DNA of 64,000 nt from Rhodospirillaceae bacterium. GTDB taxonomy: Bacteria; Pseudomonadota; Alphaproteobacteria; Reyranellales; Reyranellaceae. A model generated the notes under the pieces. That model made no database searches. It saw only the letters and a program-made list of their open reading frames with translations, and was not told the DNA's origin. Position numbers and translations under genes: made by a program. Shown here piece by piece: positions 8,245 through 20,965 of the stretch. The stretch lies in contig WOUR01000023.1 of assembly GCA_009772935.1 (NCBI GenBank), positions 1 to 64,000 of the forward strand, written 5' to 3'. The stretch's first letter is position 1; each line of letters opens with the position of its first letter.

Positions 8245-9168
8245 CTATTCATTGAGTCCCTTGCCAGGATACGGATGCGTCGCGATCCAGTGCTTCGCGA
8301 TGTCGACGCGCTTGGTGACCCAGACGCCCTGGTGCTTCTGGACGTAGTCGAGGAAGCGCCAGAGGCCGGCCATGCGCGCAGGGTGGCCGATCAGGCGCTG
8401 GTGCAGGCCGACCGACATCATCTTGGGCTGCGTCGAGCCTTCCTTGTAGAGGACGTCGAAAGCGTCCTTCACCAGGCCGAACCATTGATCCGAATGGACC
8501 ATGCCGGCGGCGTACTTGCCGTCGTTGTTGGTCAGCGAATAGGGGACGATGAGGTGCGGCTTGCCCTCGACGGTCTGCCAGAAGGGCAGCTCCTCGCCGT
8601 AATAGTCGCTGTCGTAGGTGAAGCCGCCTTCCTCGATCAGCAGGCGGCGCGTGTTCACGCTCGGTCCATAGCGGCAGTACCAGCCGGCGGGCCGCTCGCC
8701 GACCGTCTGCTCCAGCGACTTGATGGCCTTCCAGATGTGCTCGCGTTCCTCCTCTTCGGAGAGCTGGAAGTGGCGCACCCAGCGCCAGCCGTGGCAGCAC
8801 ACGTCCCAACCGGCGGCGCGGATCGCCTCGGCGGCGGGCAGGTTTCGCTCCAACGCCAGCGCGCAGCCGAAGACGGTGAGCGGCATGCCGCGCTCCAGAA
8901 AGGCGCGATGGATGCGCCAGAAGCCGACCCGGCTGCCATACTCGAACATGCCTTCGCCGGCGAGGTCTCGGCCCTTGAGGCCGATCGAGGAGGTGCTCGA
9001 TTCGGTTAGGCCGGTCTCGGTGTAGCCCTCACCGTCCTGCACCGAGGGCTCCGAGCCTTCCTCGAAGTTGACGACGAAATTGATCGCGAGGCGCGCGCCG
9101 CCCGGCCATTTCGGATCCGGCGGGTTGGCGCCATAGCCGATCAGGTCGCGTTTCGGTTGCCAGCTCAT
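8245..9168 (-). CDS. Polysaccharide-deacetylase-family hydrolase, PuuE allantoinase-like (copy 1)
   Basis: 307 residues of the carbohydrate esterase 4/NodB fold, closest in appearance to the PuuE branch (cofactor-independent allantoinase, allantoin to allantoate). The canonical deacetylase TFDDG is replaced by NFEEGSE (34-40), and the second motif reads CHGWRW (125-130), both typical of PuuE. Other marks are GWYCRYGPSVNTRR and the terminal HPYPGKGLNE. The start at 9168 has GAGGAGA upstream, and its ATGA overlaps the stop of the 110-residue gene. It is a close paralogue of the gene at 9509 and the last gene of the operon. The substrate (allantoin or another cyclic ureide) is inferred. Confidence 0.85.
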   Translation of the reverse strand: MSWQPKRDLIGYGANPPDPKWPGGARLAINFVVNFEEGSEPSVQDGEGYTETGLTESSTSSIGLKGRDLAGEGMFEYGSRVGFWRIHRAFLERGMPLTVFGCALALERNLPAAEAIRAAGWDVCCHGWRWVRHFQLSEEEEREHIWKAIKSLEQTVGERPAGWYCRYGPSVNTRRLLIEEGGFTYDSDYYGEELPFWQTVEGKPHLIVPYSLTNNDGKYAAGMVHSDQWFGLVKDAFDVLYKEGSTQPKMMSVGLHQRLIGHPARMAGLWRFLDYVQKHQGVWVTKRVDIAKHWIATHPYPGKGLNE

Positions 9169-9497
9169 GCGGGTCTCCTCACCAGTTCGGCGCCCATCTG
9201 GCGGGCGATGTCGGCAATCTTGTCGTTCCAGGTGCGCATCGACAGGGTGCGTACCCCGGCGCGCAGGCAGGCGAGCGCATAACCCGGCGCGTCGCCGCAA
9301 TCGACGATCAGCGTGAAGGCCACGTCCGGAAACTCTTCTCGTGCACGTTCCTGCAGGGCGCCGAGATATCCCGCGCCATAGAACGAGGCGGCATCCTCAG
9401 GCGTCAGCAAGACCGGCGCCGTACCCGAGGCGCGCGCGGCCAGCAGCGCCGCCTCGGTCTGCTTCCAGTCGCGTACCACGATGATCTCGTCCGCCAT
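9165..9497 (-). CDS. Conserved-looking 110-residue protein of unknown function
   Basis: Not recognised. It lies between two duplicated deacetylase genes, 11 bases after one and overlapping the next by four (ATGA), so it is surely translated with them. It has no signal peptide or membrane segment. Alternating strands and helices (IIVVRDWKQTEAALLAAR, APVLLTP, FTLIVDCGDAPGYALACLRAG) suggest an alpha/beta protein. The last stretch recalls a strand-loop of TIM-barrel class II aldolases, but the protein is far too short to be a full barrel. A role in the ureide pathway, perhaps as a subunit or stabiliser of the deacetylases, is inferred from position only. Confidence 0.8.
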   Translation of the reverse strand: MADEIIVVRDWKQTEAALLAARASGTAPVLLTPEDAASFYGAGYLGALQERAREEFPDVAFTLIVDCGDAPGYALACLRAGVRTLSMRTWNDKIADIARQMGAELVRRPA

Positions 9498-9508
9498 GAC
9501 GCACGATA

Positions 9509-10438
9509 CTACTCATTCAGCCCCTTCCCCGGATAGGGATGGGTCTTGATCCAGTGGCGGGCAATGTCGAGGCGACGGGTCACCCAGACGCCTTCGTGCT
9601 TCTGGATGTGATCGAGCAATCGTTGAAGACCCACGGCGCGCGCGGGATGACCGATCAGGCGCATGTGCAGGCCGATCGACATCATCTTGGGCTGCGTCGC
9701 GCCCTCGCGGTAGAGCATGTCGAAGGCGTCGCGCACGAACGAGAACCACTGTTCCGACGTGCCGATCGACGCGCCGAACTGGCCGTCATTGTTAGTGACG
9801 GAATAGGGCACGACGAGCTGCGGCTTGCCGTCCACGGTGACCCAGAAGGGTAGCTCCTCGCCGTAATAGTCGCTGTCGTAGAGGAAGCCACCTTCCTCCA
9901 CCACGAGGCGGCGCGTGTTCACGCCCGGCCCATAGCGGCAGTACCAGCCGAGCGGCCGTTCGCCGGTCATCTTCTGGATGGCGGCGATCGCCTTGCGGAT
10001 GTGCTCGCGCTCGGTCGCCTCGTCGAGCTCGTAGTGCTTGATCCAGCGCCAGCCGTGCGAGCAGACGTCGAACCCAGATTTTGCAATGGCGGCCGAGGCT
10101 GCGGGGTTGCGTTCCATCGCCAGCCCGCAGCCGAAGATCGTCATGGGCAGGCCGCGCTCCTGGAAGAGACGCATCAGCCGCCAGAAGCCGACCCGGCTGC
10201 CATACTCGAACAGACCTTCCGCCGCGAGGTCGCGTCCCTGGATCGACTGACCCATGCGGCTCGCGTCGCTGAGGCCAATCTCGGTATGGCCTTCGCCGTC
10301 CTGGATGGAGGGCTCCGATCCCTCCTCGTAGTTCATGACGAAGTTTACGGCGATGCGCGCCCCGTTGGGCCATTTCGGATCGGGAGGGGTGGCGCCATAG
10401 CCGATGAAATCGCGGCGGACCTCGTAGGGCATCGTCAT
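9509..10438 (-). CDS. Polysaccharide-deacetylase-family hydrolase, PuuE allantoinase-like (copy 2)
   Basis: 309 residues and, by eye, roughly 70% identical to the product of 8245-9168, with the same marks: GYGATPPDPKWP at the N-terminus, NYEEGSE in place of TFDDG, SHGWRW, GWYCRYGPGVNTRR, YDSDYYGEELPFW and an identical C-terminal HPYPGKGLNE. The pair is therefore a tandem duplication that now flanks the 110-residue gene. Expected chemistry is hydrolysis of an amide in a cyclic ureide such as allantoin. It starts 10 bases after the allA stop. Differences between the copies around residues 55-65 and 235-245 may reflect split substrate preference. Confidence 0.85.
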   Translation of the reverse strand: MTMPYEVRRDFIGYGATPPDPKWPNGARIAVNFVMNYEEGSEPSIQDGEGHTEIGLSDASRMGQSIQGRDLAAEGLFEYGSRVGFWRLMRLFQERGLPMTIFGCGLAMERNPAASAAIAKSGFDVCSHGWRWIKHYELDEATEREHIRKAIAAIQKMTGERPLGWYCRYGPGVNTRRLVVEEGGFLYDSDYYGEELPFWVTVDGKPQLVVPYSVTNNDGQFGASIGTSEQWFSFVRDAFDMLYREGATQPKMMSIGLHMRLIGHPARAVGLQRLLDHIQKHEGVWVTRRLDIARHWIKTHPYPGKGLNE

Positions 10439-10448
10439 TGGCTCCGGA

Positions 10449-10922
10449 TCAGGGAATGCGCACGGTGAAGGGCGACACCGGCACGAACTCTTCGTCGCCC
10501 TTGCCGCCGTCGCGCCACATGAAGACGGCGAAGCGGCCGGGCCGGTCGAGCACGGTGAGCCCGTGATGCCAGGTGTCGGGCCGGTAGGTGACGCCCTGCT
10601 TGCCGGTGGCGATGAAGGCCTTCATGCCGCTCGCGTCGGGACCGCCGGCGGTGGCATGCGGCGCCACGACGATCAGCCAGCGCTCGACGTCGAGGGGCAC
10701 GAAGGTCTGGGAGGAAAATTCGTGGCGCTCCAGATAGTCGCTGCGCAGCGGCCGGTCGGCCGTCTCGGCCTTCAGGCTGACCGACAGGCTCGCATGAGCC
10801 GTCGGGCGCAGGTTGCCCAGCGCGTCCTCGTAGTAGGTACGGCCGGGAACGTCCGGCAGGTCGATGACGTCGCCGAACGGGGCGAAGGCTTCTTTCGTAA
10901 GGGGCTGGGGGATCAGTTCCAT
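10449..10922 (-). CDS. allA: Ureidoglycolate lyase
   Basis: AllA splits ureidoglycolate into glyoxylate and urea, the last ureide step of allantoin breakdown. At 157 residues it matches the family length, and the cupin-like fold is seen in FAPFGDVIDLP, ERHEFSSQTFVPL, WLIVVAPHA, TYRPDTWHHGLTVLDRPGRFAVFMWRDG and the end DEEFVPVSPFTVRIP. The start at 10922 (MELIPQPLTKEAF) is 14 bases after the permease stop. Longer in-frame extensions upstream run antiphase through the permease gene and were rejected. Its presence is the best evidence that the surrounding deacetylases and importer handle a ureide. Confidence 0.92.
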   Translation of the reverse strand: MELIPQPLTKEAFAPFGDVIDLPDVPGRTYYEDALGNLRPTAHASLSVSLKAETADRPLRSDYLERHEFSSQTFVPLDVERWLIVVAPHATAGGPDASGMKAFIATGKQGVTYRPDTWHHGLTVLDRPGRFAVFMWRDGGKGDEEFVPVSPFTVRIP

Positions 10923-10936
10923 CGGCCGGGTCCTCG

Positions 10937-11764
10937 TCACTCGCGCATGCGGCGGGTCAGTCCCACCGTCCATTCCATCACCAGCATCAGCAGGAAGGCG
11001 GCCGTAATCAACACGCCCGACACGGCCGCGATGCGCGGGTCGAGCGTCGATTCCATCATGCCCCACATGCGGATGGGCAGCATGTCGGTGCGCGCGGTCG
11101 ACAGGAACAGCGACACCGGCACATTGTCGATCGAGGCCATGAAGGCCAGGAACGCGCCGGCGAAGATGCCGGGCGCGATCAGCGGCAGGGTCACGCGGCG
11201 CATCGTGTAGAGCCAGCTGGCCCCCAGGCTCTGCGAGGAATCGTTCAGCGCCGGGTCGAGCTGGGAGATGCTGGCGGACGTCGTGCGGATGATGAAGGGC
11301 ACGGTCACGATCATGTGGCCGGCGATGATCAGGTTCAGCGACGGCCGGAAGCCGATCAGCGTGAAGTACATCAGCGCCGCCAGGCCGAAGGTGAGGCCGG
11401 GCAGGACCAGCGGCGACATGAAGAGCCCGTCGGCGACGCGCGCGAGCTGGTGGCGGTTGCGCGCCAGGCCGAGCGACGCCATGCTGCCGAACAGGATGCC
11501 GAAACCGGTCGACCAGGCGGCCACCTCGAGCGAGTTGTAGACCGCGCGGTGGATCTGCCGCGATTTCGAGGCGTCGAACAGCGCCTCGTACCATTGCAGC
11601 GAGAAGCCGGTCGGCGGGAACTTGAGCGACCGTCCCTCGGTGAACGACGTCATCAGCACGATCACCACCGGCGCCACGATGATCAGCAGCGCCAGCGCGG
11701 CCAGGCCGCCGATCACGAGCGTGTAGGAGAGGTCGGCCAGACTGCGGCGCCTACCCATGGACAT
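10937..11764 (-). CDS. ABC transporter permease, polyamine/PotC type
   Basis: 275-residue inner-membrane permease with six predicted helices. The cytoplasmic EAA loop that contacts the ATPase is seen as LGASWLYTMRRVTLPLIAPG. It resembles PotC and other spermidine/putrescine/opine-type permeases. It overlaps the other permease by 14 bases and is followed by allA 14 bases later, which ties the importer to ureide catabolism. The substrate is inferred to be allantoin or a related small amide. Confidence 0.92.
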   Translation of the reverse strand: MSMGRRRSLADLSYTLVIGGLAALALLIIVAPVVIVLMTSFTEGRSLKFPPTGFSLQWYEALFDASKSRQIHRAVYNSLEVAAWSTGFGILFGSMASLGLARNRHQLARVADGLFMSPLVLPGLTFGLAALMYFTLIGFRPSLNLIIAGHMIVTVPFIIRTTSASISQLDPALNDSSQSLGASWLYTMRRVTLPLIAPGIFAGAFLAFMASIDNVPVSLFLSTARTDMLPIRMWGMMESTLDPRIAAVSGVLITAAFLLMLVMEWTVGLTRRMRE

Positions 11765-12590
11765 AGCCTCCGGAGCGGCGGCCGAGATAGGACAGCGCGC
11801 TCACGACCGTCAGCACCGAGACCAGCAGCGTGAGGGAGACCACGGCGGCGAAGGGCCAGTTGAACACGACCAGCGACTGTTGCCAGATCAGCAGCGGCAG
11901 ATAGATCAGGCGGACGCCGCCGATCACGGTCTGCGAGATGAAGGCGGTGGTGGAACTGGCGAACACCAGCAGGCAGCCTGCGACGAGGCCCGGCATGCTG
12001 AGCGGCACGATCACCTTGAACAGGGTGCGCCAGCGCGAGGCGCCCAGCGCAGACGAAGCGTCGCGCAGGTTCGGGTCGAGGCGCGACATCACGCTGATCA
12101 GCGGCAGCAGCATCAGCGGCATCTCGATCTGGGTGAGCGAGATCACGAGGCCGAGTTCGGTCTGCAGCAGGCGCAGCGGCTCGGAGATGATGCCCAACTG
12201 CATCAGCAGCGTGTTCACCACGCCCTCGCGGCCCAGCACGACGATCCAGGCGAAGGTGCGGACCACCACGGAGAGCAGCAGCGGCATCACGATGATGAAG
12301 ATCAGCACCTTCTGCAGGCGCGGCGAGGCGTCGAGATAGATCAGGGCCAGCGGATAGCCGATCACGATGGTGGCGCACACCGTCTTGAGGCCGAGCAGCA
12401 TCGTGTCGGCGATCACCTTGTAGCTGAAGGGATCGCCGAGGAACTTGGCCCACTGGCCGAAGCCCGGTTGCGTGATCTTGTCGTCGTTGAAGAAGCTGAC
12501 GCCGACCAGCATGAGGAGCGGCGCCAGGAAGATCGATGCAAAGGCCAGCGCGAGCGGCAGCGCGAGCTGCCACTCCGCCAGCTTCCTCAC
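11751..12590 (-). CDS. ABC transporter permease, polyamine/PotB type
   Basis: 279-residue permease, partner of the 10937-11764 product. Six hydrophobic helices; EAA loop LGASRWRTLFKVIVPLSMPG. The GTG start at 12590 overlaps the stop of the binding-protein gene (GTGA), and AAGGAA lies about nine bases upstream. A much longer open frame continues in the same phase across the binding-protein gene but is only a shadow. The N-terminus is short and hydrophilic (VRKLAEW) before the first helix, as in the PotB family. Confidence 0.9.
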   Translation of the reverse strand: MRKLAEWQLALPLALAFASIFLAPLLMLVGVSFFNDDKITQPGFGQWAKFLGDPFSYKVIADTMLLGLKTVCATIVIGYPLALIYLDASPRLQKVLIFIIVMPLLLSVVVRTFAWIVVLGREGVVNTLLMQLGIISEPLRLLQTELGLVISLTQIEMPLMLLPLISVMSRLDPNLRDASSALGASRWRTLFKVIVPLSMPGLVAGCLLVFASSTTAFISQTVIGGVRLIYLPLLIWQQSLVVFNWPFAAVVSLTLLVSVLTVVSALSYLGRRSGGYVHG

Positions 12591-13606
12591 TTGGCCATTT
12601 CCTTGTTGAACTTCTCGATCCAGCCGGCGCGCAGCGGATTGATCTTCGCCCAGTCGTGCCGGACGTAGCTCGACATCTCGTCGAGGTTCTTCATCGGCAG
12701 GTAGTCGGGCAGCGGCACGTCCTTGTTCACCGGAATGAAGTTGTACGGCGGCTTTGTCAGCGCCTCCTGCACCTCCTTGCCCGCGACGATGTCGAGGTAC
12801 TTGTAGGCGTTCTCGACCTCCGCGGCGCCCTTGGCGATGTGCAGGGTCGTGAGGAACGTGATGGCGCCGGTGTCGGGCTTCACGAACTCGATGTCGACTC
12901 CGCGGCCCTTCAGGGTCGCGACGGTCTGGGTGTTGGTATAGATCACATCGCACTGGCCCTGCTGGAATAGGCCGGGCATGGCGGCCGGCTGGCCGACGGC
13001 GGCGATCTTCGGCAGCACCTTCTTCAGCTCGACGAGCGCCGGCTCGATGTTGGTCTCGGAACCACCGAACACCTTGGCGATCTCGATCAGCGACACCGTG
13101 CCGAACGTGGTCTGGAACCCCGTGATGCCGAGCCGGGACACCCAGGGATCGGTGAACAGGTCCTTCCAGCCCTTCGGCGCGGGGACCTTCTTGGGATTGT
13201 AGGCGATGCCCACGACCTGCGCGTTGACGCCGATGCCCCACTCGTCGACCAGGCCGGCCGGCAGCTTGGAGGCATTGCTGATCTTCTTGATGTCGATCTT
13301 GTCGAACAGCCCATCCTGGATCGCGGTGATGCGCGGGCCGGGATCGAGCACGAAGGCGTCGAACGGCGGCGCGCCGCGCGCGGCCTTGGCCTTGGCGACC
13401 TGGTCGACGGCAAACAGCGGCTGCAGTTCGAGGTCGACGCTGTCCTTCTTCTTCAGGGCCGGCGCCACGATCGCGCGGAACGCCTCCTCCCAGGTGCCGG
13501 GATAGATGGCGGCGGCGACGCTGCCCTTGGCATGCGCGATCGAGGGAAGGAAGGCGGCGCCGCCGAGGGCGGTGGCACCGGCGAGCAGGCGTCTGCGGCT
13601 GAACAT
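12587..13606 (-). CDS. ABC transporter extracellular solute-binding protein, PotD/family 1 type
   Basis: 339-residue periplasmic receptor. The N-terminus MFSRRRLLAGATALGGAAFL with AHA cleavage looks like a Tat (twin-arginine) signal. The mature part has the PotD/spermidine-putrescine-type bilobal pattern: TWEEAFRAIVAP, FDAFVLDPG, WGIGVNAQVVGIAYNPKKV, and WIEKFNKEMAK at the end. The start at 13606 follows GGAGAT. It is gene two of the importer (ATPase, receptor, permease, permease) and should deliver the ureide-like substrate to the two permeases downstream. Confidence 0.92.
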   Translation of the reverse strand: MFSRRRLLAGATALGGAAFLPSIAHAKGSVAAAIYPGTWEEAFRAIVAPALKKKDSVDLELQPLFAVDQVAKAKAARGAPPFDAFVLDPGPRITAIQDGLFDKIDIKKISNASKLPAGLVDEWGIGVNAQVVGIAYNPKKVPAPKGWKDLFTDPWVSRLGITGFQTTFGTVSLIEIAKVFGGSETNIEPALVELKKVLPKIAAVGQPAAMPGLFQQGQCDVIYTNTQTVATLKGRGVDIEFVKPDTGAITFLTTLHIAKGAAEVENAYKYLDIVAGKEVQEALTKPPYNFIPVNKDVPLPDYLPMKNLDEMSSYVRHDWAKINPLRAGWIEKFNKEMAK

Positions 13607-13625
13607 GGAAGGATCTCCGTGGTTG

Positions 13626-14720
13626 TCAGGTGGAACGCGGAAACAGGGTGGGACGCGCATCGTTGGCCAAGGTGCAGTAAGCGCGGGCCGCATCGTTCGA
13701 AACCGCGCGGCGCGGCTCGATGATCTTCAGGAAGGTCCCGTCGGTCGCGCGGGCCTCGTGGACGAGCTGGGCGCCGATGGGCAGCGCCAGCCCCGGCTCG
13801 ACCTTCCAGGCGTTCGGGCCGGGGACCGCCGACAGCGCCAGTTGCTCGGGCCGTACCGACATCAGCACGGGCGCGCCGAGGCCAAGGCCGTTGGGCGCCG
13901 CGAGGGTGACGCTGGCGCCGGCGTCCAGAGTCACGGTGGCCATGCCGTTCTGCAAGGAGGCGATTGTCCCGTTCATCAGGTTGGTGGTGCCGATGAAGCC
14001 GTTCACGAACAGCGTCTGTGGTTCATCGTAGATCGCCACCGGCGTGCCGAACTGCTCGACCCTGCCCTTGTTCATGACGGCGATGCGGTCGGCGACGCTC
14101 ATCGCCTCGTCCTGGTCGTGGGTCACGAGGATGGTCGTGAGGCCGAGCGTCCGCTGCAGGCGCTTGATCTCGATCTGCATGTCGAGACGCAGGTTGCGGT
14201 CGAGCGCGGCGAAGGGTTCGTCGAGCAGCAGGATCGAGGGTTCGATCGCCAGCGCGCGCGCCAGCGCAACCCGCTGCTGCTGGCCGCCGGAGAGCTGGCG
14301 CGGCAGGCGCTCCTTGAAGCCGCCGAGCTGGACGGTCTCGAGGAAGCGCGACACCCGGGCCTGGACGTCCGGCCCCTTGAGGCCGCGGGCGCGCAGGCCG
14401 TAGGCCACGTTCTCCGCCACCGTCATGTGCGGGAAGAGCGCGTAGTTCTGGAAGACGATGCCGATGTTGCGCTGGTTGGGCGGCAGGTGGTCGATGGTGG
14501 CGCCGTCGACGCGCACGCGCCCCGCGGCCTGCCGCACGAAGCCGGCGATGACCCTGAGAAGGGTGGTCTTGCCGCAGCCCGAGGGACCGAGAAGCGCTAC
14601 GACCTCGCCGGGTTCGATGGCGAGCGTCACGCCGTCGACGGCGGTCGACGTTCCATAGCGGACGCTCAGATCCTCGACATCCAGCGCGCGCGCTGCGTTG
14701 GCCTTCACTGCTTGCTGCAA
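13626..14720 (-). CDS. ABC transporter ATP-binding protein, PotA type
   Basis: 364-residue ATPase. Walker A GPSGCGKTT at 45-53, Q-loop in FQNYALFPHM, signature LSGGQQQRVALARAL, Walker B ILLLDEPFAALD and H-loop LVTHDQDEA. The C-terminal 130 residues form a TOBE domain (VLMSVRPEQLAL), as in PotA/FbpC-type ATPases. It is the first gene of the importer block, 61 bases after the third deacetylase on the same strand, so the operon probably starts at 15696. Confidence 0.93.
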   Translation of the reverse strand: MQQAVKANAARALDVEDLSVRYGTSTAVDGVTLAIEPGEVVALLGPSGCGKTTLLRVIAGFVRQAAGRVRVDGATIDHLPPNQRNIGIVFQNYALFPHMTVAENVAYGLRARGLKGPDVQARVSRFLETVQLGGFKERLPRQLSGGQQQRVALARALAIEPSILLLDEPFAALDRNLRLDMQIEIKRLQRTLGLTTILVTHDQDEAMSVADRIAVMNKGRVEQFGTPVAIYDEPQTLFVNGFIGTTNLMNGTIASLQNGMATVTLDAGASVTLAAPNGLGLGAPVLMSVRPEQLALSAVPGPNAWKVEPGLALPIGAQLVHEARATDGTFLKIIEPRRAVSNDAARAYCTLANDARPTLFPRST

Positions 14721-14781
14721 CTGTTCCGCCTCCCTGCCACTGCAAACGCAAGGGGCATGCCAACCACCTCTCGTTGCCGCC

Positions 14782-15696
14782 TCATGCCGGGAACTGCTCG
14801 CGCCACGATTGCGCGACGGCGTCGCGTCGCGCGATCCACACTTTGTCGCCGTAGGATTGGAGGAGCGCGAGCACCCGCTTGAAGGCGGCGAAGCGACCCG
14901 GACGGCCGGCGATGCGCAGGTGCCAGCCGATGTTCAGCAGCTTCGGATGGCCGGCTTCGCCTTCCTCCAGCAGCATGTCGATGGCGTCGCGCACATAGTC
15001 GACCATCTCGCCGGCGCGCACGAAGCCGTTGGGATGGAAGAACTTCATGTCGTTGCTGTCGAGCGCGTAGGGCAGCACCAGGAGCGGGTGCCGTGCGTCC
15101 GTCCGGTCCCAGTAGGGAAGGTCGTCGTCGAAGCCGTTGCTGGCATAGCCGAAGCCCAGCTCCCGCAGGATCGATCGCGTCTCGGGACTTTCGCTGCCGC
15201 GGCAGAAGAATCCTGTAGGCCGCTGGCCTGTCGCGCTTTTCATGACGTCGATGCAGCGCCGCACATCGTCCAGTTCGCTCACCCTGTCGGTGTATTCGGC
15301 ATGCGGACGCCAGAGCCAGCCATGACATGCCGCCTCGTGTCCGGCCTCGACGATCCGGCGGGCGAGTTGGGGCAGGCGCTCGACGGCACGGCCGCACATG
15401 TAGAAGGTCGCCGGCACGCGGTGCTGGTCCAGCGCCGCCAGCATGCGCCAGATGCCTGCGCGCATGCCGTAGGCGAAGATCTGCTCGTTGCCCTGGTCCC
15501 AGCGTCCCGGCGGCACCACGCTCACGACCTCGGAGATCTTCTCGGCCTGGGGATCGCCGTCGCTGACGGCGAACTCCGCGCCCTCCTCGAAATTGACCAC
15601 CATCGAGACCGCCAGGTGGGCACCGCCGGGCAGCTTCCAGGCCGGCGGCCTTCCGCCGTAACCCACCAGGTCGCGTGTCTGGCTCACACCTTGCAT
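14782..15696 (-). CDS. Polysaccharide-deacetylase-family hydrolase, PuuE-like (divergent copy 3)
   Basis: 304 residues with the same PuuE-type replacements as the other two copies (NFEEGAE at 35-41, CHGWLW at 124-129) but clearly more divergent: FFCRGSESPETRS instead of YCRYGPSVNTR, YASNGFDDDLPYW instead of YDSDYYGEELPFW, and no PGKGLNE tail. It may act on a different ureide. The start at 15696 follows GGAGGA six bases upstream; the in-frame ATG at 15741 lies inside the twin palindrome and is rejected. It is the first gene of the leftward operon, facing the M20 gene. Confidence 0.85.
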   Translation of the reverse strand: MQGVSQTRDLVGYGGRPPAWKLPGGAHLAVSMVVNFEEGAEFAVSDGDPQAEKISEVVSVVPPGRWDQGNEQIFAYGMRAGIWRMLAALDQHRVPATFYMCGRAVERLPQLARRIVEAGHEAACHGWLWRPHAEYTDRVSELDDVRRCIDVMKSATGQRPTGFFCRGSESPETRSILRELGFGYASNGFDDDLPYWDRTDARHPLLVLPYALDSNDMKFFHPNGFVRAGEMVDYVRDAIDMLLEEGEAGHPKLLNIGWHLRIAGRPGRFAAFKRVLALLQSYGDKVWIARRDAVAQSWREQFPA

Positions 15697-15712: not shown

Positions 15713-15743
15713 ATGTGCACATTTCTTGACGTTATGTGCACAT
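15713..15743. promoter_or_regulatory. Twin palindromic operator in the divergent ureide promoter
   Basis: Two identical 10-base palindromes ATGTGCACAT occupy 15713-15722 and 15734-15743, with centres 21 bases apart (two helical turns). They lie in the 72-base gap between the third deacetylase and the M20 gene. TGT-n-ACA palindromes are typical of FCD-type GntR regulators, and such a gene lies 1.3 kb downstream (17039). I infer that this regulator binds here and controls both directions. Confidence 0.7.
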
Positions 15744-15768
15744 AATTTTACCAACCGCCGGCAGGCCC

Positions 15769-17049
15769 ATGACTGAACTCCACCGCGACCTCGATCCCGA
15801 AACCACCCTGGCCGGCCAGTGGTTCGAGCACTTGCGCACGCACTCCAAAGCCCGCCTCGGCGTCACCCGCGCGTCCTACGGCGAGGGCGAGCAGATGGCG
15901 CACGACCTGATGCAAGGCATCGGCCAGTCGATGGGGCTGGAGATGCGCACCGACGCCGCCGGCAACCTCTACCTGACCCTGCCCGGGCAGGATCGCTCGC
16001 TGCCCGTCCTCATGACCGGCTCGCATCTCGATTCGGTGCCGGAGGGCGGCAACTACGACGGCGCTGCAGGTGTGGTCGCCGGCATGGCCATGCTGGCGCG
16101 CTGGCGTCGCGCGGGGCGAACGCCCAAGCGCGACATCACCGTGATGGGCGTGCGGGCGGAGGAACTGTCGTGGTTTCCCGCGCCCTATATCGGCAGTCGC
16201 GCTGCCTTCGGCCTTCTGGAGCCGGAGGCGCTCGACGCCTGCCGGCGTCCCGACACGGGGCGGACGCTGGCCGAGCACATGAGAGAGGCGGGGTTCGCAC
16301 CCGATCGCATTCGCGCGCGCGAACGCCAGCTCGATCCCGCGCGCATCGCCTGCTTCCTCGAACTCCATATCGAGCAGGGACCGGTTCTGGTCCAACGCGC
16401 CTTGCCGGTCGGGATCGTGACCGGTATCCGCGGCAACCTGCGCTATCGCGATCCGCACATCGTCGGCCGCTACGGCCATGCCGGCGCGGAGCCGCGGCTG
16501 TCGCGCAACGACGCCGTGATGGCCGGCGTCGAGTTCGTGTCGCGCCTCGAGGCCTTGTGGCTGGAGCACGAGGCGGCGGGCAAGGACCTGGTCTGCACGG
16601 TCGGCCAGTTCCATACCGATACCGAAGTGCACACGATGACCAAGATCCCGGGCGAACTGTGGTTCTCGATGGACATCCGCAGCGAGGACAACGAGGTGCT
16701 GCTCGCCATTGACCGGCGGCTGCGCGGGATCGCCGAGGAGATCGGCGCGCGTCGCGGAGTCACGATCGATCTCGGAGCCTTCACCAACGCCAAGCCGGGC
16801 CCGATCGACCGCGGGCACCGCGCGCGGCTGGAGCGGCTGGCGAAAGAACTTGGCATCGAGGCGCTGCCGATGGCGAGCGGCGCGGGACACGATGCGGCGG
16901 TGTTCGGCATCATGGGTGTGCCCACGGCGATGATCTTCATCCGCAACGAGCATGGCAGCCACAATCCCGACGAGGCGATGGACCTCGCCGACTTCGCGCA
17001 GGGCCTCAGGCTGCTGGTCGCCGCGGTGGAGGAGATCGATGCCGCGTAA
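15769..17049 (+). CDS. M20-family amidohydrolase (allantoate amidohydrolase / N-carbamoyl-amino-acid hydrolase type)
   Basis: 426 residues of the hydantoinase/carbamoylase branch of M20 metallopeptidases, which hydrolyse allantoate, ureidoglycine or N-carbamoyl amino acids. Dinuclear metal ligands are visible: His86 in GSHLDSVPEGG, Asp97 in YDGAAG, Glu131-Glu132, His200 in LELHIEQGP, and the last His in NEHGSHNPDEAMD. The usual EEGSRF after the glutamates reads EELSWFPAPYIGSR here, an unusual variant. ATG 15769 was chosen over a GTG at 15736 that sits within the operator. In this cluster it most likely converts allantoate on the way to ureidoglycolate, the AllA substrate. Confidence 0.88.
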   Translation: MTELHRDLDPETTLAGQWFEHLRTHSKARLGVTRASYGEGEQMAHDLMQGIGQSMGLEMRTDAAGNLYLTLPGQDRSLPVLMTGSHLDSVPEGGNYDGAAGVVAGMAMLARWRRAGRTPKRDITVMGVRAEELSWFPAPYIGSRAAFGLLEPEALDACRRPDTGRTLAEHMREAGFAPDRIRARERQLDPARIACFLELHIEQGPVLVQRALPVGIVTGIRGNLRYRDPHIVGRYGHAGAEPRLSRNDAVMAGVEFVSRLEALWLEHEAAGKDLVCTVGQFHTDTEVHTMTKIPGELWFSMDIRSEDNEVLLAIDRRLRGIAEEIGARRGVTIDLGAFTNAKPGPIDRGHRARLERLAKELGIEALPMASGAGHDAAVFGIMGVPTAMIFIRNEHGSHNPDEAMDLADFAQGLRLLVAAVEEIDAA

Positions 17050-17755
17050 GCCAAGGAAGGGCGACGTCGCCGCCGACGAGGCGGTCTATGGCGCGATCCG
17101 GCGGGCGATGCACATGGGCCGCCTCGCACCCGGCACCAAGCTGCAGGAGCCGGCGCTGGCGCGCGTGCTGGGCGTCAGCCGCGAGCGCGTGCGCAAGGCA
17201 CTGCATCGTCTGGTCCACGAGGGCTGGCTGACCGCCGTCCCCAACCGCGGCACCTTCGTGCCCACGCTCACGGTCGAGGAGATGCGCCAGATCTACGACG
17301 TGCGCTCGATGCTGGAGGCGGCGATCGTGCGCCGCCTCAGCGAGGGCCATGGCGCGGCGGCGGCTAAGCGTCTCAAGGCGCATGTTGCGGAAGAGAAAGC
17401 CGCGACCCGGCGCGACGATCGCGGGCGTCTTTTCGAGCTTTCGGGCGAGTTCCATGTCCTGCTGGCCGAACTCTGCGGTAACGACGAGCTGACGCGGCTG
17501 CTGCGCGGCCTGCTGACGCGCTCGACCATGCATTTCTCGCTGGCCGCGCCTCGGCAACTCACGAACTGCGCCGGCCCGCACGACCACGGCGACATCGCCG
17601 ACGCCATCTTGGGCGGGAAGCCCGACAAGGCGGCGAAGCTGATGCTCGGCCATCTCGCCGGCCTGGTGACCCTGCAGGCCGCACGCCCGCCGCAGCATGA
17701 GCCCGTGGATCTCCCGGAAGCGTTTCGCGGGATCAAGGCGCGGCGAAACGAATAG
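17039..17755 (+). CDS. GntR-family transcription regulator, FCD subfamily
   Basis: 238 residues: a basic N-terminus, a winged helix-turn-helix at about 10-75 (LQEPALARVLGVSRERVRKAL, then wing LTAVPNRGTFVP) and an all-helical FCD effector domain with the metal or ligand histidines in FELSGEFHVLL and HDHGDIADAI. It overlaps the end of the M20 gene by 11 bases, so the two are co-translated. The likely role is a ureide-responsive repressor acting on the twin palindromes at 15713-15743 and on its own operon; the effector is unknown. Confidence 0.92.
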   Translation: MPRKPRKGDVAADEAVYGAIRRAMHMGRLAPGTKLQEPALARVLGVSRERVRKALHRLVHEGWLTAVPNRGTFVPTLTVEEMRQIYDVRSMLEAAIVRRLSEGHGAAAAKRLKAHVAEEKAATRRDDRGRLFELSGEFHVLLAELCGNDELTRLLRGLLTRSTMHFSLAAPRQLTNCAGPHDHGDIADAILGGKPDKAAKLMLGHLAGLVTLQAARPPQHEPVDLPEAFRGIKARRNE

Positions 17756-17827: not shown

Positions 17828-18835
<1,008 letters not shown>

Positions 18836-18848
18836 CTTCTTCCCTCCG

Positions 18849-20837
18849 TTATTGCGCCAGCCGGCGCGCCGCTTGTGCGATCGCTTCGGCCGTAATGCCG
18901 AAATGCTTGTAGAGTTCCGGGGCCTTGGCCGATGCGCCGAAGCCCTTCATGCCCACGAACGCGCCCTTCGATCCGAGCCAGCGCTCCCAGCCGAATCCGG
19001 TCGCCGCCTCGCAGGCGACGCGGATCGTGCCGTCGCCGCCCATCACCTTTGCTCGATAGGTGTCGTCCTGCGCCGCGAACAACTCCCATGACGGCATCGA
19101 GACGACCGCGGCCGCGAGCCCGTCCTTGGCGAGCAGGTCGCGCGCGGCGAGGGCGAGCTGCACTTCGGAGCCCGACGCGATCAGACGGATCGGAGCTGCC
19201 TCGTCGCCGGCTAGTATGTAGGCGCCCTTGGCGCACAGGTTCTCGTCACCGGCGCCGCGTACGGTCGGCAGGTTCTGGCGGGTGAGCGCCAGGACGCTCG
19301 GTACGTACTTGGCTTCCAGCGCAATCTGCCAGCATTCGGCCGTCTCGATGGCGTCGGCGGGACGCAGCACCTGCAGATTGGGGATGGCGCGCAGGGCCGG
19401 TAGGTGCTCGACCGGCTGGTGCGTCGGGCCGTCTTCGCCGAGGCCGATCGAATCGTGCGTCATCACATAGATGACCCGCACGCCCATCAGCGCCGAGAGG
19501 CGGATCGACGGCCGGCAATAGTCGGTGAACACCATGAAGGTGCCGCCGTAGGGAATGACGCCGCCGTGCAGTGCCATGCCGTTCATCGCGGCGGCCATGG
19601 CATGCTCGCGGATGCCGTAATAGATGTAACGGCCGGCGGTATCGGCGCGCGAGGCGCCCTTCAGCGTTGCGGTTTTCGTATTGTTCGAACCGGTCAGGTC
19701 GGCCGAGCCGCCGATCGTGTCGGGCAGCACCGGGTTGATGACCTCGAGCGCCTCCTGGCTCGACTTGCGGGTGGCCCAGGACGGCTTCTCGGCCGCGATC
19801 TTCGCCTTGAACGCGGCAATCGCCTCGCCGACAGCGAGCGGAATGTCGCCCTTCTGGCGGCGGTCGAACTCGGCGCGATCCTCGGGCGCCATGGCGGCGA
19901 GGTTCTTGTTCCACTTGCGGCGGGCCGACTTGCCACGGGCGCCGATCTTGCGCCAGGCCGAGAACACCGCCTCGGGAATGTCGAACGGTTCGTGGTTCCA
20001 GCCGAGCTTGGCGCGGGCGCCGGCGATCTCGTCCTTGCCCAGCGGCGAGCCGTGCGTGGCGGCGGTGCCGGCCTTGGTCGGCGCGCCGTAGCCGATCACC
20101 GTCTTGCAGGCGATCAGCGAGGGCTTGTCGGTGACATTGCGGGCCTTGCGGATGGCGCGCGTAACGGCCTCGGCATCATGGCCGTCGACGGCCTGCACGT
20201 GCCAGCCGGCGGCGGCAAAGCGCTTCTTGTGATCCTCCGACGTCGACAGCGAGGTCGGGCCGTCGATCGAGATGCCGTTGTCGTCGAACAGCACGATCAG
20301 GCGGCCGAGGCCGAGATGGCCGGCCAGCGTGATGGCTTCCTGGCCGACGCCTTCCATCAGGCAGCCGTCGCCGGCGATCACATAGGTGTAGTGGTCGACG
20401 ACGTCGCGGCCGAACCGCTCGGCGAGGATGCGCTCGGCGAGGGCGAAACCGACCGAATTGCCGAGGCCCTGCCCCAGCGGACCTGTGGTCGTCTCGATGC
20501 CGCTCGCGTGACCGTATTCGGGATGGCCCGCGGTGCGGGCGCCCAGTTGGCGGAACTTCTTCAGCTCGTCGAGAGTCATGTCGGCATAGCCGGTGAGATG
20601 CAGCAGCGAGTAGAGCAGCATCGAACCGTGACCGGCCGACAGGATGAACCGGTCGCGATCGGGCCAGTTGGGCTCCGAGGCATCGAACTTCAGGAACTTG
20701 GAGAACAGGACCGTGGCCACGTCGGCCATGCCCATCGGCATGCCGGGATGGCCCGAATCCGCCAGCTGCACGGCGTCCATGGCCAAGGCCCTGATGGCGT
20801 TCGCCATGTCGCGCGGGGCAGCGGTTTGATCGGTCAT
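18849..20837 (-). CDS. tkt: Transketolase
   Basis: Thiamine-diphosphate enzyme moving two-carbon units in the pentose phosphate (and Calvin) pathways. 662 residues, the normal size. Seen: N-terminal [16 protein letters not shown], the ThDP motif [13 protein letters not shown] through [18 protein letters not shown], and the pyrimidine-domain [14 protein letters not shown] and [20 protein letters not shown]. The start at 20837 ([16 protein letters not shown]) fits homologues but lacks a ribosome site. An in-frame ATG at 20879, preceded by AAGGGG, would add 14 basic residues and is a real alternative. Confidence 0.96.
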
Positions 20838-20965
20838 TTTATGCTTGTGCCGTATGGGTTTTCGGATGGCGCGCAACATGACGACCACCCCTTGGCCCGT
20901 CAATGCGCAAAAACTCGCGCAAAGCCAACATCTTGCGGGCATTTGCCCTCCACAGGGCCCAGATG

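Follow-up and report, generated by a model that had tools for sequence, protein, structure and literature searches.

The window, the whole 64,000-nucleotide stretch of DNA analysed here, carries two divergent gene units that start on either side of a 72-bp gap. The leftward unit opens with a PuuE-like gene (PuuE3) and runs through an ABC importer (ATPase, solute-binding protein and two permeases) and a ureidoglycolate lyase family gene to two further PuuE-like genes, and the rightward unit consists of an M20 amidohydrolase gene followed by a GntR/FCD regulator gene. The genes and the promoter features between them are:

8245–9168, minus strand: PuuE-like gene (PuuE1); PF01522
9509–10438, minus strand: PuuE-like gene (PuuE2); TIGR03212 398.1 bits, below the cut-off of 424.6
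10449–10970, minus strand, start approximate: ureidoglycolate lyase family gene; PF04115 118.3 bits, cut-off 23; NCBIfam equivalogs below cut-off
10937–11764, minus strand: ABC permease 2; PF00528
11751–12560, minus strand, start approximate: ABC permease 1; PF00528
12587–13612, minus strand, start approximate: ABC solute-binding protein; PF13416, PF13343
13626–14720, minus strand, start approximate: ABC importer ATPase; PF00005
14782–15696, minus strand: PuuE-like gene with polysaccharide-deacetylase fold (PuuE3); PF01522; TIGR03212 282.6 bits, below the cut-off of 424.6
15713–15722, no strand: distal palindrome ATGTGCACAT, on the far side from the regulator gene; window sequence
15723–15733, no strand: 11-bp spacer, constant in length and variable in sequence; alignment of 38 promoters
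15734–15743, no strand: proximal palindrome ATGTGCACAT; window sequence
15744–15754, no strand: conserved block AATTTTACCAA past the proximal palindrome, TATTnTnCCAA in most relatives; pairwise identity
15769–17049, plus strand: M20 amidohydrolase (Zn-dependent hydrolase PRK12891; hydantoinase/carbamoylase family); NCBIfam NF009527 469.3 bits, cut-off 461; TIGR01879 272.4, cut-off 204
17039–17755, plus strand: GntR/FCD regulator, proposed binder of the palindromes; Pfam GntR 61.1 bits, FCD 75.5 bits

Allantoinase, allantoate amidohydrolase and ureidoglycolate lyase classes are all present, with PuuE, allantoate and ureidoglycolate equivalog scores below cut-off. Three PuuE-like genes fall within the one leftward unit (8245–15696). 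PuuE2 and PuuE3 score below the allantoinase cut-off, so the PuuE-like genes may act on related substrates.

A preliminary description of this DNA had claimed two identical palindromes, centred 21 bp apart, between divergent start codons, and the window sequence bears out each element: ATGTGCACAT occurs at 15713–15722 and again at 15734–15743, the centre distance is 21 bp, and both copies lie in the 72-bp gap between ATG 15696 (minus) and ATG 15769 (plus), the likely starts of the PuuE-like and M20 hydrolase genes. Each copy reads GT-GC-AC with 2 nt between the boxes, and excerpts of Suvorova et al. (PMC4494728) give the GntR operator signature as a palindrome with GT and AC boxes 2–3 nt apart. 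An ORF finder also offered GTG starts inside the proximal palindrome (15741 minus, 15736 plus), which we rejected on the ground that 18 genomes in which neither gene was found still carry the pair. An open frame crosses the pair as well, and a coding origin was rejected since the pair is kept in these 18 genomes, whose stretches hold neither PuuE3 nor M20. A promoter consensus scan found none, and the promoters could not be placed. Within the spacer, TTGACG at 15726–15731 may be the −35 element of the rightward promoter in one of the gene layouts described below (layout A only); because it is missing from most layout-B spacers, we do not rely on it. The block TATTnTnCCAA at 15744–15754 is conserved in layouts A and B, and could be assigned neither as a promoter element nor as an accessory half-site.

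The pair had also been called unlikely by chance, a claim that the window alone upholds only in part. The exact word ATGTGCACAT averaged 0.035 copies per shuffled window in 200 dinucleotide shuffles, and an identical 10-bp palindrome repeated within 60 bp occurs once in the real window against a shuffle mean of 0.1. Such a pair was nevertheless present in 18 of the 200 shuffles, and with one mismatch allowed the window holds 2 matches against 1.04 expected, so that taken by itself the window is only moderately surprising. Conservation across species, described below, removes the doubt, and on that ground we rejected a chance origin. The 6.01-Mb genome holds three exact copies of ATGTGCACAT; the third (contig C34) is coding, within a long open frame reading CGTDVHIL (locus L003), so the pair is the sole exact non-coding occurrence that we found. 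The degenerate word WTGTGCACAW matched four places genome-wide, against two for the reversed control, comprising the pair, the coding copy in C34 and one TTGTGCACAA in contig C80. A genome scan had been expected to turn up more paired sites; at exact match there were none, so the regulon looks local.

We searched 76 genomes of the order for TGTGCACA-N(11–15)-TGTGCACA, which allows centre spacings of 19–23 bp. The pair was found in 38 of the 76, at one place per genome and always with N13, that is, with a centre spacing of 21 bp in 38 of 38, and the reversed-control search of the same 76 genomes returned 0 matches. Among 146 relatives searched, GntR matches reached E 1e-20 or better in 46 genomes, of which 38, all within the genus, scored 4.6e-86 or better and the remainder 1.4e-38 or weaker. 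The genomes with the pair and those with a close GntR/FCD ortholog form identical sets of 38, and two family members outside the sets (G005 and G075) have distant GntR relatives only and no pair. These genomes are related, so the 38 are not 38 independent events.

Alignment of the 38 promoters shows a proximal palindrome identical in all and a distal palindrome that reads ATGTGCACAT in 24, TTGTGCACAT in 11 and TTGTGCACAA in 3; its degeneracy in 14 of 38 counts against reading the pair as a double operator. The spacer never changes in length across 26 distinct sequences, and its mean pairwise identity is 0.468, against 0.369 for the 31 bp upstream, 0.496 for the 31 bp downstream and 0.667 for the 11-bp block at 15744–15754. 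A distance between sites that stays constant while the intergenic regions vary marks a cooperative GntR divergon, and here that distance was 21 bp in 38 of 38 promoters across one genus and three layouts, and 21–22 bp in three further genera. The earlier proposal that the phasing reflects two dimers on one DNA face is probably right, given the 21-bp spacing throughout the 38.

The site follows the operon of the regulator rather than the enzyme genes. A total of 19 genomes, among them that of the window, have the pair flanked by PuuE3 and M20 (layout A). Another 18 have neither gene in the stretch, and there the pair is flanked by the ABC ATPase and regulator genes (layout B), with the regulator alignment starting 42–105 bp from the pair and the spacing still 21 bp. 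A single genome with M20 only (L099) has the pair between the ATPase gene and M20, and in all three layouts the pair precedes the operon that holds the regulator. The solute-binding protein is present in 46 of 65 genus members, 8 of which lack the regulator, and TGTGCACA was not found in the fetched stretch of any of these 8 regulator-less Reyranella genomes that keep the transporter. In 5 of the 8 (L225, L227, L228, L229 and L231), GAPDH is the first of the window's genes to follow the ATPase gene, at a distance of 141–384 bp, which outlines an insertion or deletion; in the other 3 the contig stops before the position of GAPDH could be seen. The presence and absence of regulator and sites coincide, a pattern that one deletion of linked DNA could also produce. 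GAPDH and transketolase genes (window 17828–20900) lie beyond the regulator in most stretches.

Beyond the genus, we scanned 84,980 species genomes, possibly without the records of the window's own genome, for ATGTGCACAT-N(1–31)-ATGTGCACAT and found 96 pairs in 95 stretches. The commonest spacings were 21 bp (29 pairs) and 39 bp (24 pairs, 23 of them titled Streptomyces). The 29 pairs at 21 bp comprise 21 of Reyranella type, one from Rhodoplanes, one from Ferrovibrio and six unrelated (three Macrococcus/Macrococcoides, two Prevotella-group and one Propionibacteriaceae), and Azorhizobium contributes two pairs at 22 bp. A GntR relative shares the stretch in 17 of 29 cases at 21 bp, 1 of 4 at 22 bp, 1 of 2 at 30 bp (at 6.5 kb) and at no other spacing; six of the Reyranella-type stretches end before or inside the regulator gene. 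Outside the genus, pair and relative occur together in Rhodoplanes (21 bp), Ferrovibrio (21 bp) and Azorhizobium (22 bp). Among the matches listed, seven distinct promoters (L110, L122, L198, L199, L236, L237 and L239; five of the Ferrovibrio group, Rhodoplanes and one Azorhizobium) have a third TGTGCACA, with a pair spacing of 21 bp in five and 22 bp in two. This third site lies 81–83 bp past the pair, away from the regulator gene and near the divergent importer operon, and stands 102–104 bp, near ten turns, from the proximal site. The 21-bp ATGTGCACAT pairs in L132, L182 and L193 (Macrococcus/Macrococcoides) and in L146 and L183 (Prevotella group) have no GntR relative in the stretch and are possibly sites of another regulator. 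Four of the Streptomyces 39-bp pairs (L104, L106, L130 and L165) lie in a coding frame reading DVHI...DVHI, presumably that of an SsgB-like sporulation protein.

The regulator belongs to the FCD subfamily of the GntR superfamily (PF00392 61.1 bits, cut-off 27; PF07729 75.5 bits, cut-off 24.3). An AlphaFold2 monomer model built from 19 sequences (mean pLDDT 85.6) predicts a winged helix-turn-helix and six main FCD helices (79–102, 106–124, 128–146, 149–169, 183–191 and 195–215) with a 4-residue helix turn at 225–228. Six rather than seven C-terminal-domain helices define the VanR group in excerpts of PMC7797058, and the predicted fold places the protein in the FCD subfamily with the VanR-group helix count. 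At the metal-site positions H139, H183 and H205 are invariant in the 19 sequences, and an invariant Ser135 takes the place of the Asn/Asp. Foldseek returned GntR/FCD regulators as the best PDB matches, namely a Brucella melitensis structure, PmiR, and Atu1419 with palindromic DNA (6za3), with the AlkR structure 9isw lower among the matches.

Atu1419 of Agrobacterium fabrum (VanR group, FCD) offers the closest comparison, which we draw from excerpts of its description (PMC7797058). The two central bases are all that separates its 10-bp palindrome ATGTATACAT from the one here, two palindromes again occupy a divergent promoter that serves the regulator gene itself, the recognition-helix arginines align (R48 here, R45 there) and both proteins have six FCD helices. 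The Atu1419 palindromes, unlike those here, stand 190 bp apart and are looped by a tetramer; the core is TA with helix SRTPVRE there and GC with helix SRERVRK here; and Atu1419 serves another pathway, its metal-site Asn being Ser here. In our profile alignment R48, E49 and R50 correspond to R45, T46 and P47 of Atu1419, of which R45 makes contact with the guanine of GT and T46 with core base A5 (excerpts of PMC7797058).

This alignment bears on a correlation between the recognition helix and the operator centre. We sorted 68 rows of relatives, listed from class, Ferrovibrio-order and phylum searches plus two named loci, by the residue after the conserved recognition-helix Arg, leaving out the window's own gene (L259), and looked upstream of the alignment start, which is not the annotated start. 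Glu was found in 13 rows (two repeats, hence 11 distinct genes), Thr in 41 and A, G, M, P or S in 14; the last group was excluded from the Fisher test, and TGTGCACA occurred in 0 of the 14 among the matches listed. Among the same matches, TGTGCACA lies within 450 bp upstream in 9 of 11 distinct genes with the Glu helix (SRER[VI]RK) and in 2 of 41 with the Thr helix (SRT), whereas TGTATACA or TGTGTACA occurs in 0 of 11 and 25 of 41, respectively (Fisher p = 7.5e-7, Glu versus Thr for TGTGCACA among the matches listed and uncorrected for kinship). The two Glu-type misses are G464, with a 21-bp pair ahead of its M20-regulator operon, and G115, with one TGTGCACA 3.9 kb upstream. G613, also Glu-type, has a single site and G126 has three, 38 and 172 bp apart, so a pair at 21–22 bp is not general among Glu-type regulators. 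In excerpts of Suvorova et al. (PMC4494728), recognition-helix position 39 correlates with the central bases and acidic residues prefer C; we take position 39 to be E49 here, and judged from sequence the combination of Glu with a GC core fits that rule. We tentatively propose that in alphaproteobacterial ureide-linked FCD regulators the choice of Glu (SRER[VI]RK) or Thr (SRT) sets a GC or a TA/GT core, that one branch holds a rigid two-turn pair, and that the Ferrovibrio group, Rhodoplanes and Azorhizobium add a third site that could let a tetramer form a small loop for repression.

The suggestion that the GntR/FCD product binds the pair gains support from the identical sets of 38 genomes, the three layouts, the eight losses and the helix–core correlation. 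Taking the co-inheritance, rarity, fixed spacing and helix–core correlation read from these genomes, we infer that the pair is probably a cooperative double operator through which the protein encoded at 17039–17755, one dimer per palindrome and 21 bp apart on one DNA face, would repress the divergent operons until a ureide-type ligand releases it. The best reading of the protein would be an autoregulating FCD repressor, VanR-like, with a double operator. The two dimers would sit side by side and aid each other's binding, and the bound protein would cover the start region of both operons and block RNA polymerase; because it would cover both, it would repress its own operon (M20 hydrolase and regulator, hence autoregulation) together with the divergent importer and ureide catabolism operon. 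A compound of the ureide-type pathway would be expected to release it. Dimers lying next to each other would fit a step of 21 bp (about 7 nm). The two DNA sites of the Atu1419 tetramer are about 10 nm apart (excerpts of PMC7797058), so that the DNA here would have to bend to accommodate a tetramer shaped in this way.

The same regulator might instead occupy the two sites independently, each dimer blocking its own promoter and the 21 bp reflecting two overlapping back-to-back promoters. The gap is short, the Azorhizobium pairs at 22 bp indicate that the spacing is not absolutely fixed, the SRE-type relative G613 has a single-site promoter, and excerpts of Suvorova et al. (PMC4494728) describe operon-specific double sites besides cooperative ones. 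Yet in layout B the surroundings and the distance to the regulator vary by tens of bases while the spacing stays at 21 bp, and a whole-turn spacing is what same-face contact predicts; we regard independent occupancy as unlikely. We give little credence to a regulator that binds the pair and activates one operon, or acts as a dual regulator: protein bound at the proximal palindrome, near the start codons, would be expected to block, and Atu1419, the nearest DNA-bound relative by structure, acts as a repressor (excerpts of PMC7797058), although the distal palindrome does lie just upstream of TTGACG, the possible layout-A −35. That the palindromes serve another factor, or arose from coding sequence or by chance, is very improbable given that pair and regulator share one set of 38 genomes and that the pair is kept where neighbouring genes differ; on the other side stand the 6 of the 29 pairs spaced 21 bp whose stretch shows no relative of this GntR, the four coding Streptomyces pairs, the open frame across the window pair and the 18 shuffles with some pair.

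A cooperative double operator of this kind has precedents. Excerpts of Suvorova et al. 2015 (PMC4494728) report 29 FadR-subfamily divergons with common double sites and read such sites as cooperative control of both operons; as there, two palindromes lie at a near-constant distance in a divergent promoter with the regulator gene in one of the operons, and the excerpted main text contains neither the word TGTGCACA nor an allantoin-related regulator. AlkR of Pseudomonas aeruginosa (VanR group; excerpts of PMC12042122) is likewise an FCD regulator with a palindromic operator, a dimeric repressor whose operator lies over the promoter; unlike the system here, it has one main site, ATTGTCAGACAAT, with an odd centre, and is released by acyl-CoA. 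In open-licence PMC text we found no paper on TGTGCACA with GntR and none on ATTGTGCACAAT, among the titles listed for TGTGCACA and transcriptional regulators none names GntR, and the texts on allantoin or allantoinase with GntR, on Reyranella with allantoin and on cooperative operators do not describe this operator, nor do excerpts of PMC5343134 show it. The promoter fits the double-site divergons of PMC4494728, and our searches of open-licence PMC text brought up no earlier description of the operator itself.

For specialists, the helix–core correlation, the most useful addition, and the third site in sister lineages are the points to take away. An uncharacterised group of FCD regulators is given orthologs and target operons along with a predicted operator, and one helix position is linked to the operator centre in a way that a small residue swap could test. 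The fixed 21-bp spacing, its natural 22-bp variants and the natural losses offer a clean system for the question of cooperation between FCD dimers, and an importer is tied to ureide-breakdown genes. Elsewhere in the window's own genome, the single TTGTGCACAA lies at C80:3372–3381, near position 1501 of locus L197.
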